A DNA stretch of 64,000 nucleotides from Gemmatimonadota bacterium (GTDB lineage Bacteria > Gemmatimonadota > Gemmatimonadetes > Gemmatimonadales > Gemmatimonadaceae), in assembly GCA_028287235.1 (NCBI GenBank), contig JAQBQB010000026.1, positions 124,001-188,000 on the forward strand. The letters run 5' to 3'. The notes under the pieces are model-generated. The model searched no databases. It worked only from the letters and a program-made list of their open reading frames with translations, and was not told the DNA's origin. This document shows positions 3,271-16,443 of this stretch, in pieces (position 1 is the stretch's first letter; each line of letters begins with the position of its first letter). Position numbers and translations under genes: made by a program.

Positions 3271-3369
3271 GCGCGCGGCTGCGGAGCCGCGATATCCTCC
3301 GCGCGACCTGGCAACACTGCCGATGGTGCCGGCAGTATGCCACCGGCTCGCGCTGCGGACACCTCGGCT
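3271..3369 (+). repeat. 100-base palindromic repeat, copy A
   Basis: Copy of a long imperfect palindrome seen three times in the window. It reads gcgcgcggctgcggagccgc, then gatatcctcc, then a centre around ggcaacactgccga and cggcagtatgcca. This copy is the most degenerate: its central arms no longer match perfectly. It is inverted relative to the copies at 3722 and 7104 and lies directly against the 3' end of the XRE gene. Confidence 0.85.
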
Positions 3370-3371
3370 CG

Positions 3372-3650
3372 CTACGCGCCAGGCTGCACTCGCGGCACTC
3401 GCGTCGCGCGCGGGTCGGACGTTCGCAGCTCGACGCGGCGGCCGAGGCGTGTGAGGAATCGGATCAACGTCTCGAGCGAGAATCGCTCGAGCTTCCCGCG
3501 CCGCAACTCCGAGATGCGCGCACGATCGGTTCCGATGAGCGCCGCGATGTCGTCGGCGTTCCACCCGGCGAGCAACACGGCGAGCTCCGCGCCCGCTTGG
3601 CGCTTGAGCTCAGGAATCGGATCGCGTGCGTGCACAACAGTCTGCGGCAT
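3372..3650 (-). CDS. XRE-family helix-turn-helix protein, antitoxin-like
   Basis: A 92-residue protein whose middle, AELAVLLAGWNADDIAALIGTDRARISELRRGKLERFSLETLIRFL (quoted here only as landmarks: DIAALIGTDRARISELRRG), is a clear lambda-repressor-type helix-turn-helix followed by the FSLETLIRFL helix. This layout is typical of HigA/XRE antitoxins and of small DNA-binding XRE regulators. No RelE/HigB-like toxin reading frame lies on either side, so it is an orphan. The gene sits between inverted copies A and B of the 100-base palindrome, with the stop codon two bases from copy A. Its last residues (RATRVPRVQPGA) look like read-through into flanking DNA. A role in regulating the palindrome, or being carried by it, is speculation. 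Confidence 0.7.
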   Translation of the reverse strand: MPQTVVHARDPIPELKRQAGAELAVLLAGWNADDIAALIGTDRARISELRRGKLERFSLETLIRFLTRLGRRVELRTSDPRATRVPRVQPGA

Positions 3651-3721
3651 ACGGAAACGGTACCACGCGCCGTTCTGCGCCCCGCTCTCGTTCTATCGCA
3701 TCACGCGCCAGAAAACGGCGA

Positions 3722-7103: not shown

Positions 7104-7200
7104 GCGCGGAGCCACGGTGTCCGCAGCGCGAGCCGGTGGCAATACTGCCGAGCAGTACCGGCAGTATTGCCAGGTCGCGCGAAGGATACCGTGGCTTTGC
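7104..7200 (-). repeat. 100-base palindromic repeat, copy C; rest of the 6947-7288 gap is otherwise featureless
   Basis: Same element and orientation as copy B. The centre is TGGCAATACTGCCG, loop, CGGCAGTATTGCCA. The outer arms read gccacggtgtcc and ggataccgtggc where copy B has gccgcggtgtcc and ggatatcgcggc. The G-to-A change in one arm is matched by C-to-T in the other, so pairing is kept. It lies between the kinase gene and the cysteine-leader region. I see nothing else in the surrounding gap. Confidence 0.9.
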
Positions 7201-7288: not shown

Positions 7289-7317
7289 TTGACTGTGTCG
7301 CACCACACCCGTACGCT
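7289..7317 (+). promoter_or_regulatory. Sigma70-like promoter for the cysteine leader
   Basis: TTGACT and TACGCT are separated by exactly 17 bases. Seven bases after the -10 hexamer is the A of an ATG, so a transcript starting at the usual distance would be leaderless or nearly so. There is no ribosome-binding site in front of that ATG, which fits leaderless translation. Predicted by eye only. Confidence 0.55.
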
Positions 7318-7324
7318 TCGCTTC

Positions 7325-7477
7325 ATGCCCACCGCACACCTCTTCGCAGCCGCCGCCACCACGCCCGTTCGCATGGGTGAGATGGCGCGCGCCGGTGAGT
7401 GTTGTACGCCCGTCTGTTGTTGTATGACCATGTGCCATGACGCGCGCGTGCGGCCGGCGATGAAGCAGCGAGAGTAG
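7325..7477 (+). CDS. Cysteine-rich leader peptide (attenuator)
   Basis: A short frame of 50 codons beginning at the predicted transcript start (MPTAHLFAAAATTPVR), or of 34 codons if the in-frame ATG at 7373 is used (MGEMARAGE). It encodes six cysteines in a run of twelve codons, CCTPVCCCMTMC, at 7400-7435. It ends 92 bases before the sulfite/nitrite reductase start and overlaps the first arm of an antiterminator. Polycysteine leader peptides that sense cysteine supply and attenuate sulfur-assimilation genes are known in mycobacteria, where they are also leaderless. A ribosome slowed on the Cys codons would leave the 7450-7457 arm free. The peptide itself probably has no function. Confidence 0.75.
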   Translation: MPTAHLFAAAATTPVRMGEMARAGECCTPVCCCMTMCHDARVRPAMKQRE

Positions 7478-7540
7478 CTCGCACACTTCTCTACCGAAAA
7501 GGGATTTCACACCCGGCCGCTCATTCGAGCGGCCGTTTTT
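7450..7540 (+). terminator. Transcription attenuator: antiterminator and intrinsic terminator
   Basis: The terminator is CGGCCGCTC (7514-7522), loop attc, GAGCGGCCG (7527-7535), followed by five T. Upstream, inside the last third of the leader frame, GCGGCCGG (7450-7457) is the exact reverse complement of CCGGCCGC (7513-7520), the left arm of the terminator. The two pairings exclude each other. A ribosome stalled at the Cys codons leaves 7450-7457 free to pair, giving read-through. A ribosome that reaches the stop codon covers it, so the terminator forms. This is the textbook layout of amino-acid leader attenuation, and it identifies cysteine as the likely signal. Confidence 0.78.
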
Positions 7541-7569
7541 CTTGGCCGTACTTCAACTGGGGACGACAG

Positions 7570-9240
7570 ATGTCGGAGTCTGCGCTGCTACCAAAGAAAG
7601 AGACCGCCGCCGGCCGCGTCGAGCGGATCAAGCGTGAGAAGGCACCGTGGTCGATCATGGACGACATCCGCCGGTACGCGCGCGACGGATTCGACTCGAT
7701 CTCGAACGAAGATCTCACCGTGCGATTTCGCGCTTGGGGCCTCTACACCCAGGGCGACGGACGCGGCACGCGCGGCGAAGAGCAGCCGTACTTCATGATG
7801 CGCCTGCGCACCCCCAACGGCACGATGACGTCGGCCATGGTGCGAACGATCGCCGACCTCTCCGACACGTACGCGCGCAGCAGCATCGACATCACGAACC
7901 GGCAGAACTTCCAGTTGCACTGGCTGCGCATCGAGGATGTGCCCACGGTGTGGGACGCGCTGGAGAAAGTTGGTTGGACGAGCCAGGGCTCGTGCGGCGA
8001 TAACACGCGCACGGTGACGGGCTGCCCGCTCGCCGGTGTCGATCACGAAGAGCTGATCGATGCATCGCCCTTCGCGCTGGCCGTCGACCGGTTCATGAAC
8101 GGGAACGCCGACTTCGCCAATCTGCCGCGCAAGTTCAAGATCACCATCACCGGCTGCGCGCACTGGTGCACGCATCCGGAGATCAACGACATCGGCGCCA
8201 CGGCCGTGCGCCGCGCGGACGGCGCGATCGGCTTTCACGTCCGCGTGGGCGGCGGCCTGTCGACGCGTCCGCACCTCGCGGTGTTGCTCCCCGCGTTCGT
8301 CGGCCAAGAGCAGCTGCTCGACGTAGTGATGGCCGTCGCAGGCATTTTTCGCGATTCCGACGAGCTCCGGCTCAACCGCGCCAAGGCGCGTATGAAATTC
8401 CTCTTTATCACTCATGGATGGACCGCCGAGTCGTTCCTCGCCGAAGTGGAGCGGCGTATCGGGTACAAGCTCGATGCGCCGGTGGACGAAGCGCGTCCCG
8501 AAAGCCCCGACCGTGATCATGTCGGCGTGCACGCGCAGAAACAGAAAGGATTGGCGTACGCCGGCTACTCCGTGGTGTCCGGACGGGTCGCGCCGCATCA
8601 GCTCCGTCAGTTCGCCCAGCTCGCCGACCAGTTCGGCGACGGCTCGCTTCGTCTCACGGCGACACAGAACATCGTGCTGCTCAACATCCCGGAATCGCGC
8701 GTTGCCGAACTGCACGCCTCGAGCGCGGCGGTAGGCGTGCCGCTCGACGGTTCTCCCTTCCAGCGCGGAACGCTGTCGTGCACGGGCTCCGAGTACTGCA
8801 AGCTGGCGATCACGGAGACCAAGCAGTTCAGCATTCGCCTCGCCGGCGATCTCGAGAATCGCCTCCCGGGCTTCAACGAGACGATCAAGCTTCACGTGAC
8901 GGGATGCCCGAACGCCTGCGGCCAGCATTGGATCGCCGACGTGGGGCTGCAAGGCGTTCTGCTGAAGGAGGGCGACGAACAGGTGGAGGGCTTCGACTTC
9001 TTCGTCGGCGGCGGGCTCGGCGCCGAGAGCCGGTTCGCGGAGCGCGTGGGTTATCGCACCACTGCCGCGAAAGTGCCCGATGCGTTGGAGCGATTGTTCA
9101 ACGCGTTCACCGCGGAGTCCTTCGCGGACGAGGGCTTTCGCGCCTGGACTGCCCGGCGCGGCGATGCGGGAATCAGCGCGGTGCTTCAGGGCGCGGAGGC
9201 CCAGTACGCTGGCACGGCCGATGCCGGTTCGGAGCGGTAA
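7570..9240 (+). CDS. Siroheme [4Fe-4S] sulfite/nitrite reductase (ferredoxin type)
   Basis: A 556-residue enzyme of the NirA/SirA family, which performs six-electron reduction of sulfite to sulfide or nitrite to ammonia in the cytoplasm. The cofactor cysteines are present as C-x5-C (SCTGSEYC, Cys404 and Cys410) and C-x3-C (TGCPNACG, Cys446 and Cys450). The two ferrite-reductase half-domains start around TQGDGRGTRGEEQPYFMMR and the QKGLAYAGYSV segment. Where mycobacterial SirA carries a Cys that cross-links to Tyr, this protein has GDNTR, closer to assimilatory nitrite reductases (recalled from memory). Against that, the Cys-rich attenuator immediately upstream argues for sulfite and cysteine synthesis. 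I favour sulfite reductase, with nitrite possible. GGGGA lies six bases before the ATG. Confidence 0.88.
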   Translation: MSESALLPKKETAAGRVERIKREKAPWSIMDDIRRYARDGFDSISNEDLTVRFRAWGLYTQGDGRGTRGEEQPYFMMRLRTPNGTMTSAMVRTIADLSDTYARSSIDITNRQNFQLHWLRIEDVPTVWDALEKVGWTSQGSCGDNTRTVTGCPLAGVDHEELIDASPFALAVDRFMNGNADFANLPRKFKITITGCAHWCTHPEINDIGATAVRRADGAIGFHVRVGGGLSTRPHLAVLLPAFVGQEQLLDVVMAVAGIFRDSDELRLNRAKARMKFLFITHGWTAESFLAEVERRIGYKLDAPVDEARPESPDRDHVGVHAQKQKGLAYAGYSVVSGRVAPHQLRQFAQLADQFGDGSLRLTATQNIVLLNIPESRVAELHASSAAVGVPLDGSPFQRGTLSCTGSEYCKLAITETKQFSIRLAGDLENRLPGFNETIKLHVTGCPNACGQHWIADVGLQGVLLKEGDEQVEGFDFFVGGGLGAESRFAERVGYRTTAAKVPDALERLFNAFTAESFADEGFRAWTARRGDAGISAVLQGAEAQYAGTADAGSER

Positions 9241-9252
9241 CCGGAGGCTCCC

Positions 9253-9435
9253 ATGGCACACACACATGAGTACGACTGCGTCGTCTGCGGCGCACACTTC
9301 GACTCGCAGGAGGACCTGGCCCGCCACGACCGCGCGAACCACGCGCCTCGACAAGCAATCGACCCCCACGCGCCCGCCGAGCCGATGGGGAACGAACGGG
9401 CGCGCAAGCACGAGCCTGACGACAGACTCAGCTGA
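9253..9435 (+). CDS. Small C2H2 zinc-finger protein
   Basis: A 60-residue protein with an excellent ribosome site (CGGAGG) twelve bases after the reductase stop, so it should be co-transcribed. It contains one C2H2 finger, C9-x2-C12-x12-H25-x4-H30 (DCVVCGAHFDSQEDLARHDR), followed by a polar, probably disordered tail rich in charged residues. Single C2H2 fingers are uncommon in bacteria but small proteins of this kind occur in soil lineages. Possible roles are DNA binding or metal or thiol handling alongside the reductase; nothing in the sequence decides. Convergent with the next gene, with only 37 bases between them. Confidence 0.72.
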   Translation: MAHTHEYDCVVCGAHFDSQEDLARHDRANHAPRQAIDPHAPAEPMGNERARKHEPDDRLS

Positions 9436-16130: not shown

Positions 16131-16147
16131 CCTTCCTACAATCGAAG

Positions 16148-16200
16148 TCTCGTGGTGATTTGCCGCCCATTGCCGCCACGTTAAACAAAGAGCTAAACCG
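16148..16200 (+). ncRNA. SAM-II riboswitch aptamer
   Basis: The segment carries the conserved SAM-II pattern: CGTGG (16151-16155) pairing with CCACG (16176-16180), the invariant TGATTTG after the first strand, TTGC before the second, GTTAAACAA directly after it, and the closing GCTAAA (16192-16197). The pseudoknot pairing TTTG (16159-16162) with CAAA (16186-16189) is available. SAM-II aptamers bind S-adenosylmethionine and are known mainly upstream of metA/metX-type genes in Proteobacteria. Here it precedes metX, and a terminator hairpin begins six to nine bases after it, suggesting transcriptional rather than translational control. Confidence 0.88.
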
Positions 16201-16203
16201 CGA

Positions 16204-16241
16204 CGCGCCCGGCGGCCTTCTCGCCCGGGCGTTTTGTGTTT
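16204..16241 (+). terminator. Intrinsic terminator directly after the SAM-II aptamer
   Basis: CGCCCGG (16206-16212) pairs with CCGGGCG (16225-16231), followed by TTTTGTGTTT. It would act as the expression platform of the riboswitch, stopping transcription about 200 bases before metX when SAM is bound. How the aptamer and hairpin exclude each other is not obvious from the sequence. Confidence 0.7.
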
Positions 16242-16257
16242 TCCGACCCATCTGCTC

Positions 16258-16359
16258 ATGCACTCGATGATCTCGACCACCGCGCAGTCCATGCGAATGA
16301 CGATGACGACCGCGTCTCCAACCGGAGCGACGGACGGGCGATCGCGCATGCGTGCGTAG
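16258..16359 (+). CDS. Methionine-rich leader peptide
   Basis: A 33-codon frame with six methionines, four of them in the first sixteen codons and in the pattern SMRMTMTT (MHSMISTTAQSMRMTMTT). It ends 34 bases before a strong terminator and 84 bases before metX. The density of ATG codons and Thr codons is far above chance and resembles the layout of threonine- or branched-chain leader peptides, but for methionine. No clear ribosome site precedes it. A pairing GATCG (16340-16344) with CGATC (16398-16402) of the terminator arm is a weak antiterminator candidate. It probably senses Met (or Met plus Thr) aminoacyl-tRNA. Confidence 0.62.
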   Translation: MHSMISTTAQSMRMTMTTASPTGATDGRSRMRA

Positions 16360-16393
16360 GTCTTCGAGTTGAGCCAACGACTGGCTTCACCGC

Positions 16394-16426
16394 CCCCCGA
16401 TCTCTCCACGAGATCGGGGGTTTTTT
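16394..16426 (+). terminator. Second intrinsic terminator (attenuator) before metX
   Basis: Perfect 11-base stem CCCCCGATCTC (16394-16404) and GAGATCGGGGG (16410-16420) around a five-base loop, then six T. It lies in the 5' leader, downstream of the Met-rich frame and 18 bases before the metX start, so it must be conditional or it would silence the operon. Confidence 0.88.
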
Positions 16427-16443
16427 CATATAGGAGAGTTGGG

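Follow-up and report, generated by a model that had tools for sequence, protein, structure and literature searches.

The locus raises the question of whether a short, cysteine-rich reading frame in front of a reductase gene is the sensing part of a regulatory device and, if so, which signal it reads and at which level it acts. It lies in a stretch of 64 kb from a Gemmatimonadaceae-like genome that was analyzed as a whole and is called the window in the following. A preliminary description had read the locus as a complete cysteine-responsive attenuator, possibly leaderless, before a sulfite/nitrite reductase gene.

Elements of the leader and identity of the downstream gene

The leader open reading frame (ORF) comprises 50 codons on the forward strand (7325–7477, ATG at 7325, TAG at 7475–7477; CCTPVCCCMTMC, full frame MPTAHLFAAAATTPVRMGEMARAGECCTPVCCCMTMCHDARVRPAMKQRE) and encodes a poly-Cys peptide. 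The candidate control codons are TGT TGT at 7400–7405, TGT TGT TGT at 7415–7423, and TGC at 7433–7435 (+ strand), i.e., codons 26, 27, 31, 32, 33, and 37. On both strands of the 64 kb, this is the sole ORF with at least five Cys codons within 12 codons and a terminator behind it. The peptide did not match any NCBIfam model, leader-peptide models included, and an Rfam scan yielded nothing above the gathering threshold at this leader or at the leaders of seven sampled loci.

A terminator scan located an intrinsic terminator behind the leader (CGGCCGCTCATTCGAGCGGCCG followed by TTTTT; 7514–7540, +). Its stem-loop (7514–7535) has nine base pairs, eight of them G-C, and an ATTC loop. Three terminator-like sites were present in the 800-bp region, compared to 0.5 in shuffles. 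Inside the leader ORF, the eight nucleotides GCGGCCGG (7450–7457, +) are the exact complement of CCGGCCGC (7513–7520, +), which contains the 5′ arm of the terminator and, in addition, base 7513 just outside the stem. The pairing tests and the folding model described below point to GCGGCCGG as the 5′ arm of an antiterminator. The arm begins 17 nt from the initial base of the final Cys codon, and its end is separated from the stop codon by another 17 nt. The preliminary description had named the eight-base arm, its position between the Cys codons and the stop codon, and the nine-base stem with the T-run; each was recovered by direct reading, with the partner of the arm read as 7513–7520. The locus thus has a short ORF with clustered codons for the end product ahead of sulfur genes, an intrinsic terminator between leader and gene, and a competitor for the 5′ arm of the terminator that a stalled ribosome would expose.

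The downstream gene, the putative target of regulation (7570–9240, +), encodes a ferredoxin-dependent reductase of the NirA/SirA type with 556 aa. The closest solved structure is that of NirA from M. tuberculosis (1zj8, E 8e-92), and Tyr59 and Cys142 of the window reductase align with chain positions 80 (Tyr) and 172 (Cys) of 1zj8. In plant nitrite reductases, these two positions are occupied by Phe and by Gly or Met. The aligned NirA residues, Tyr69 and Cys161 of that enzyme, form the covalent Tyr-Cys bond by which NirA is recognized as a sulfite reductase. The presence of the pair means that the window protein is best named a sulfite reductase, an identity that is consistent with a Cys leader. 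Of the previous designation, sulfite/nitrite reductase, the sulfite half is the better choice. The NirA models of NCBIfam matched the protein below their cut-offs. The genome of the window had no match to PF01507 (PAPS reductase/CysD) or PF01747 (ATP sulfurylase), and therefore, the sulfite may have another source. Two further features were observed nearby. A small ORF after the reductase gene (9253–9435, MAHTHEYDCVVCGAHFDSQEDLARHDRANHA...) carries a C2H2 zinc-finger-like motif, and an intergenic inverted repeat (GCAATACTGCC...GGCAGTATTGC) occurs at about 7137–7172 as well as at about 3280–3700, and possibly belongs to a dispersed repeat family.

Recurrence of the leader and covariation with the terminator

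A search for relatives with the window reductase yielded orthologues at 63–77% identity in other genomes, and upstream regions were read as far as the start of the operon. A Cys-rich ORF was found ahead of the sulfite reductase gene or operon in 13 other Gemmatimonadota. Examples of the peptides are ..NCAHQYCACACACMCACMQVSRGRPV (L019), ..NCCCPKTCARSFESGHGFVARGGVE (L020), ..SCCHSALCCAPCCCACPNRGGC.. (L021), ..CSECCRECCCSCCGCCWSHGC.. (L022), ..VCCRAAQSAACCCCCAVLC.. (L024), ..MCCCACMCARSLEGG.. (L026), ..CMCVPTAQAMCCCMACA.. (L050), and ..ACACMCP....CCC.. (L049 and L059); L051 is also Cys-rich, and L054, from another family, has MHGCCCCRCTSREP... Counterparts of the Cys cluster of the window leader were seen in L019, L020, L021, L024, L026, L049, L050, L054, L059, and about 44 further loci. 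The genes behind the leaders of relatives encode sulfite reductase and, in some operons, also PAPS reductase, APS kinase, ATP sulfurylase, and CysN; CysG, HemD, CysK, and an OsmC-like protein are encoded in some of them as well.

Among 84,980 species genomes, a scan detected 80 loci, the majority from Acidobacteriota. The NirA/SIR loci outside Gemmatimonadota and Rokubacteria, grouped by record title, numbered 60, nearly all from Acidobacteriota; three more with other record titles were counted separately. An ORF with at least four Cys in 12 codons was present at most 260 nt upstream of the reductase gene in 44 of these 60 loci, compared to 0/60 on the reverse strand and 2/59 in the DNA 740–1000 nt upstream. 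Most of the "negative" Acidobacteriota loci that were inspected carry three Cys codons and a terminator. None of the 10 Rokubacteria loci had a Cys-rich leader. T-run terminators follow almost every leader, usually 25–50 nt past its stop codon, and one was detected after 56 of the leaders tested; those of L019, L024, L049, L050, and L059 are nearly identical to the terminator of the window. The search of related genomes that had been proposed for Cys runs and complementary arms has thus recovered both.

To quantify the pairing in 56 leaders, the leader sequence from the first Cys codon onward was tested for its duplex energy with the 5′ arm of the terminator, and the result was compared with dinucleotide shuffles. 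For the single window locus, p was 0.014. The value was below 0.05 for 24 leaders and below 0.01 for seven, and the Fisher combined p was about 7e-20 over 56 leaders that are not independent of each other. For several Acidobacteriota leaders (e.g., L083, L089, and L115), the pairing with the own terminator was not significant in the shuffle test. Because of the kinship among the leaders, they were assigned to 23 sequence clusters, and terminators were exchanged among these. Own pairs of leader and terminator were better than swapped pairs (permutation p = 5e-5), and the own arm of the window ranked first against all other clusters. This swap test is the exception among the p-values, which otherwise overstate independence, as they were derived from related leaders. 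None of the statistics include L018, because its Cys frame continues through the terminator; the swap test furthermore excluded L052, the Cys ORF of which overlaps a SAM-II aptamer, and L070 and L114, which have doubtful or mis-parsed terminators.

Arm and terminator changed in a compensatory manner, from GCGGCCGG/CCGGCCGC in the window to GAGAGTGG/CCGCTCTC in L020, GCGGCCGA/TCGGCCGC in L024, GCGGCCGGGTTG/CAACCCGGCCGC in L059, GCGGCCGGT/ACCGGCCGC in L050, and GGGGCGGG/CCCGCCCC in L021. Loss of the pairing between 7450–7457 and 7513–7520 had been named as an argument against an attenuator, but the pairing is kept in relatives and covaries. In most Gemmatimonadota, the arm begins 10–24 nt past the last Cys codon and ends ahead of the stop codon; at this distance, a stalled ribosome would leave the arm free, and an advancing ribosome would cover it.

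This arrangement was explored with a folding model in which a ribosome footprint was placed on the leader. For a transcript ending at 7522, the antiterminator probability was 0.92–0.99 with Cys codons 31–37 in the A site, where the footprint leaves the arm free, 0.2–0.3 with codons 26–27, and 0 with codons 44–49; at the stop codon, the ribosome has just uncovered the arm. Without a ribosome and before the terminator has emerged, the arm tends to pair upstream, to a large extent within the Cys-codon region (0.70–0.98 for transcripts ending at 7500 and 7480). On the complete transcript, the terminator dominates in every ribosome state, with a probability of about 0.95 or more. Therefore, the switch would have to be decided kinetically and not at equilibrium, and a decision based on time, as in classical attenuators, is what we infer.

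The comparative evidence, all of it computed from sequence, moves the attenuator from a plausible reading to a strong prediction. The window element is very likely a ribosome-mediated transcription attenuator of the sulfite reductase gene that responds to Cys-tRNA, and the cysteine-responsive attenuator of the preliminary description thereby gains the support of a covarying pairing and of broad recurrence. Transcription would begin at or beside the leader ATG, and a ribosome would load there without a Shine-Dalgarno (SD) site. Scarcity of Cys-tRNA is predicted to stall the ribosome on the Cys codons, with its leading edge just short of 7450–7457. The free arm would pair with 7513–7520 upon its emergence, the terminator would be too late to form, and the polymerase would continue into the reductase gene. 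With ample Cys-tRNA, the ribosome would cover 7450–7457 during synthesis of the terminator, the hairpin at 7514–7535 could form, and transcription would end at the T-run. The reductase is thus probably made only when cysteine is short.

The start of transcription and translation

A candidate promoter, already named in the preliminary description and recovered at its stated place, consists of the −35 box TTGACT (7289–7294), a spacer of 17 nt, and the −10 box TACGCT (7312–7317, +). Seven nucleotides separate the −10 box from the ATG at 7325, and the predicted transcription start is the A of this ATG or 1 nt before it. Direct reading did not reveal an SD-like sequence ahead of the ATG. The match to the consensus is weak (8/12), and a stricter promoter scanner did not report 7289–7317.

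The leaders were scanned for TTGACA-like and TATAAT-like boxes, with the shuffled upstream DNA of 56 leaders as control. A promoter 4–12 nt ahead of an in-frame ATG or GTG was found for 36 of 56 leaders, while the shuffles gave a mean of 1.6 and a maximum of 5; chance alone thus yields a promoter of 8/12 quality at this place in about 3% of the shuffled sequences. With a score of at least 9, such promoters were found for 27 leaders (shuffles: mean 0.3, maximum 3). The distances peak at 6–7 and 9–10 nt, which indicates that transcription begins on the start codon itself or within a few bases upstream of it. Outside Gemmatimonadota, the promoter ends 6–12 nt before the start codon in 34 of 43 leaders, and this spacing leads to the strong prediction that the Acidobacteriota leaders start leaderless or nearly so. 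Within Gemmatimonadota, the window and L054 are the only leaders with a promoter at the start, and that of L054 is marginal and doubtful.

It is possible, albeit less likely, that the same Cys-responsive transcription attenuator has a normal 5′-UTR in this organism, with transcription beginning further upstream or translation beginning internally, e.g., at ATG 7373 or 7382. The modest promoter score and the negative result of the stricter scan would fit such an arrangement, as would the lack of a convincing start-codon promoter in the other Gemmatimonadota leaders, several of which possess a 5′-UTR with a SAM-II riboswitch. However, the spacing of 7 nt in the window is that of the dominant Acidobacteriota class and would arise by chance in only about 3% per leader. 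Furthermore, an SD motif is absent ahead of ATG 7325. SD sites serve only about 22% of Gemmatimonadetes genes (PMC10783764), and a start without such a site is therefore likely. On balance, leaderless translation of the window leader is the somewhat favored reading. The earlier term "leaderless" is therefore well supported for the Acidobacteriota leaders as a group and plausible for the window with its weak promoter.

Known cysteine leaders, other readings, and SAM-II riboswitches

With regard to sensing and start, the nearest known systems are short poly-Cys ORFs of mycobacteria, which are leaderless (Canestrari et al. 2020, doi 10.1111/mmi.14498; described in PMC9031893, PMC4633059, and PMC1262725). 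Their translation begins at the 5′ end of the message, and, like the window leader, they place a run of Cys codons upstream of sulfur and cysteine genes, nirA included. They were described by Shell et al. as the first case of Cys-directed attenuation (PMC4633059). They were reported to lack obvious terminators (PMC1262725), and they are cited as translational attenuation (PMC13236596). In contrast, the window has a strong intrinsic terminator (7514–7540) and a matching antiterminator arm. The "same logic" as in mycobacteria, proposed previously, is thus true of the sensing half only and does not extend to the terminator half.

The mycobacterial precedent would suggest that the Cys ORF governs translation of the downstream gene and that the hairpin is incidental. 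This is improbable here, because strong T-run terminators stand behind almost all leaders, the arms of leader and terminator covary, and the start region of the reductase gene (7559–7572) lies outside the hairpin. Even less probable is an arrest triggered by the Cys-rich peptide itself, through redox or nascent-chain effects, in place of Cys-tRNA starvation; a Cys-rich chain that stalls under thiol stress would presumably need identical parts, but the number of Cys (3 to about 15) and their order are free to vary, and a conserved arrest motif is absent. Least probable is that the ORF encodes a small protein with a function of its own, such as metal or redox binding or the role of a peptide precursor, which the terminator merely separates from the reductase: Cys-rich peptides can bind metals and the frame is open across 50 codons, but the clusters share no sequence beyond Cys (CCCDRVRRCLC, CCRCC, CCCTCCCCACVC, CACACMCAC), the peptide lacks an NCBIfam match, complementarity to the terminator constrains the segment behind the Cys codons, and the leaders sit directly ahead of sulfur-assimilation genes.

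The transcription attenuator favored here is closest in mechanism to the uORFC-8-2 motif before cysS of Rhodobacterales, a predicted Cys-codon transcription attenuator (PMC8632094) with an intrinsic terminator. It differs in its pair of tandem Cys codons and its conserved structured motif, in its restriction to Alphaproteobacteria, and in its target, the cysteinyl-tRNA synthetase gene. The classical attenuators (trp, his, leu, thr, ilv, phe) share the control codons, the competing antiterminator and terminator, the T-run, and a biosynthetic target, whereas here the proposed signal is cysteine, the antiterminator arm lies within the ORF, and the predicted promoter is at the start codon.

A literature search retrieved no report of leader-peptide attenuators for these phyla and no paper joining leader peptides, cysteine, and Gemmatimonadota; for Acidobacteria, the single match was a general survey (PMC2965389). 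In the literature surveyed, cysteine-directed attenuation has been described or predicted solely before cysS in Rhodobacterales and, with leaders that lack obvious terminators, in Actinobacteria, mycobacteria among them. What appears to be new is a terminator-bearing, often leaderless Cys attenuator that is widespread ahead of sulfite reductase in two phyla. The "wide or convergent use" suggested earlier holds with regard to wide recurrence, which raises the question of whether poly-Cys leaders spread or arose repeatedly.

Several of these leaders lie next to a second potential sensor. SAM-II riboswitches (RF00521) with their own hairpin and T-rich tail were found by Rfam directly before the Cys leader in L018 (8882–8952), L049 (5760–5831), and L059 (4039–4110), and overlapping it in L052 (10254–10328). 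A conserved element before these four leaders and L022 had been considered as a small ORF (MVICRLLPPR) plus hairpin, which was rejected because Rfam identified the SAM-II aptamer in four of the five cases; the L022 element was below the SAM-II cut-off. A two-input control of these sulfur-assimilation operons by SAM and Cys-tRNA is possible.

The window itself has a single Rfam match, to SAM_alpha/SAM-II (RF00521) at 16142–16218 with 39.4 bits. It is followed, within 16142–16430, by a Met-rich ORF (16261–16359, MHSMISTTAQSMRMTMTTASPTGATDGRSRMRA) and a strong terminator, ahead of metX/metY/cysK-like genes, and this region looks like a tandem of SAM riboswitch and Met attenuator. The same order of SAM-II and poly-Met leader was seen in three relatives (L168, L169, and L180). 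The top 30 SAM-II loci had no general association with Met- or Cys-rich leaders; the combination was found in particular Gemmatimonadaceae. In addition, L165 and L181 (G014) have a leader-like ORF with both Cys and Met (MIARTLNCMCMCHHWSLCRGPGASSRTHARR) behind a SAM-II riboswitch.

We give an even chance to the joint proposition that leaderless, terminator-type Cys attenuation is general for assimilatory sulfite reduction in Acidobacteriota and Gemmatimonadota and that Gemmatimonadaceae stack such leaders behind SAM-II riboswitches. If true, the stacking, including the poly-Met leader behind SAM-II before metX-metY-cysK, would place two checkpoints on one message, which read SAM and charged tRNA-Cys or tRNA-Met, respectively, and would point to composite control by a SAM riboswitch and codon sensing. 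In two phyla that are common in soil, a full terminator/antiterminator version of cysteine attenuation, probably with translation that begins at the 5′ terminus of the transcript, would thus guard sulfite reductase, which allows sulfur control to be predicted, in a testable way, for organisms that offer few genetic tools.
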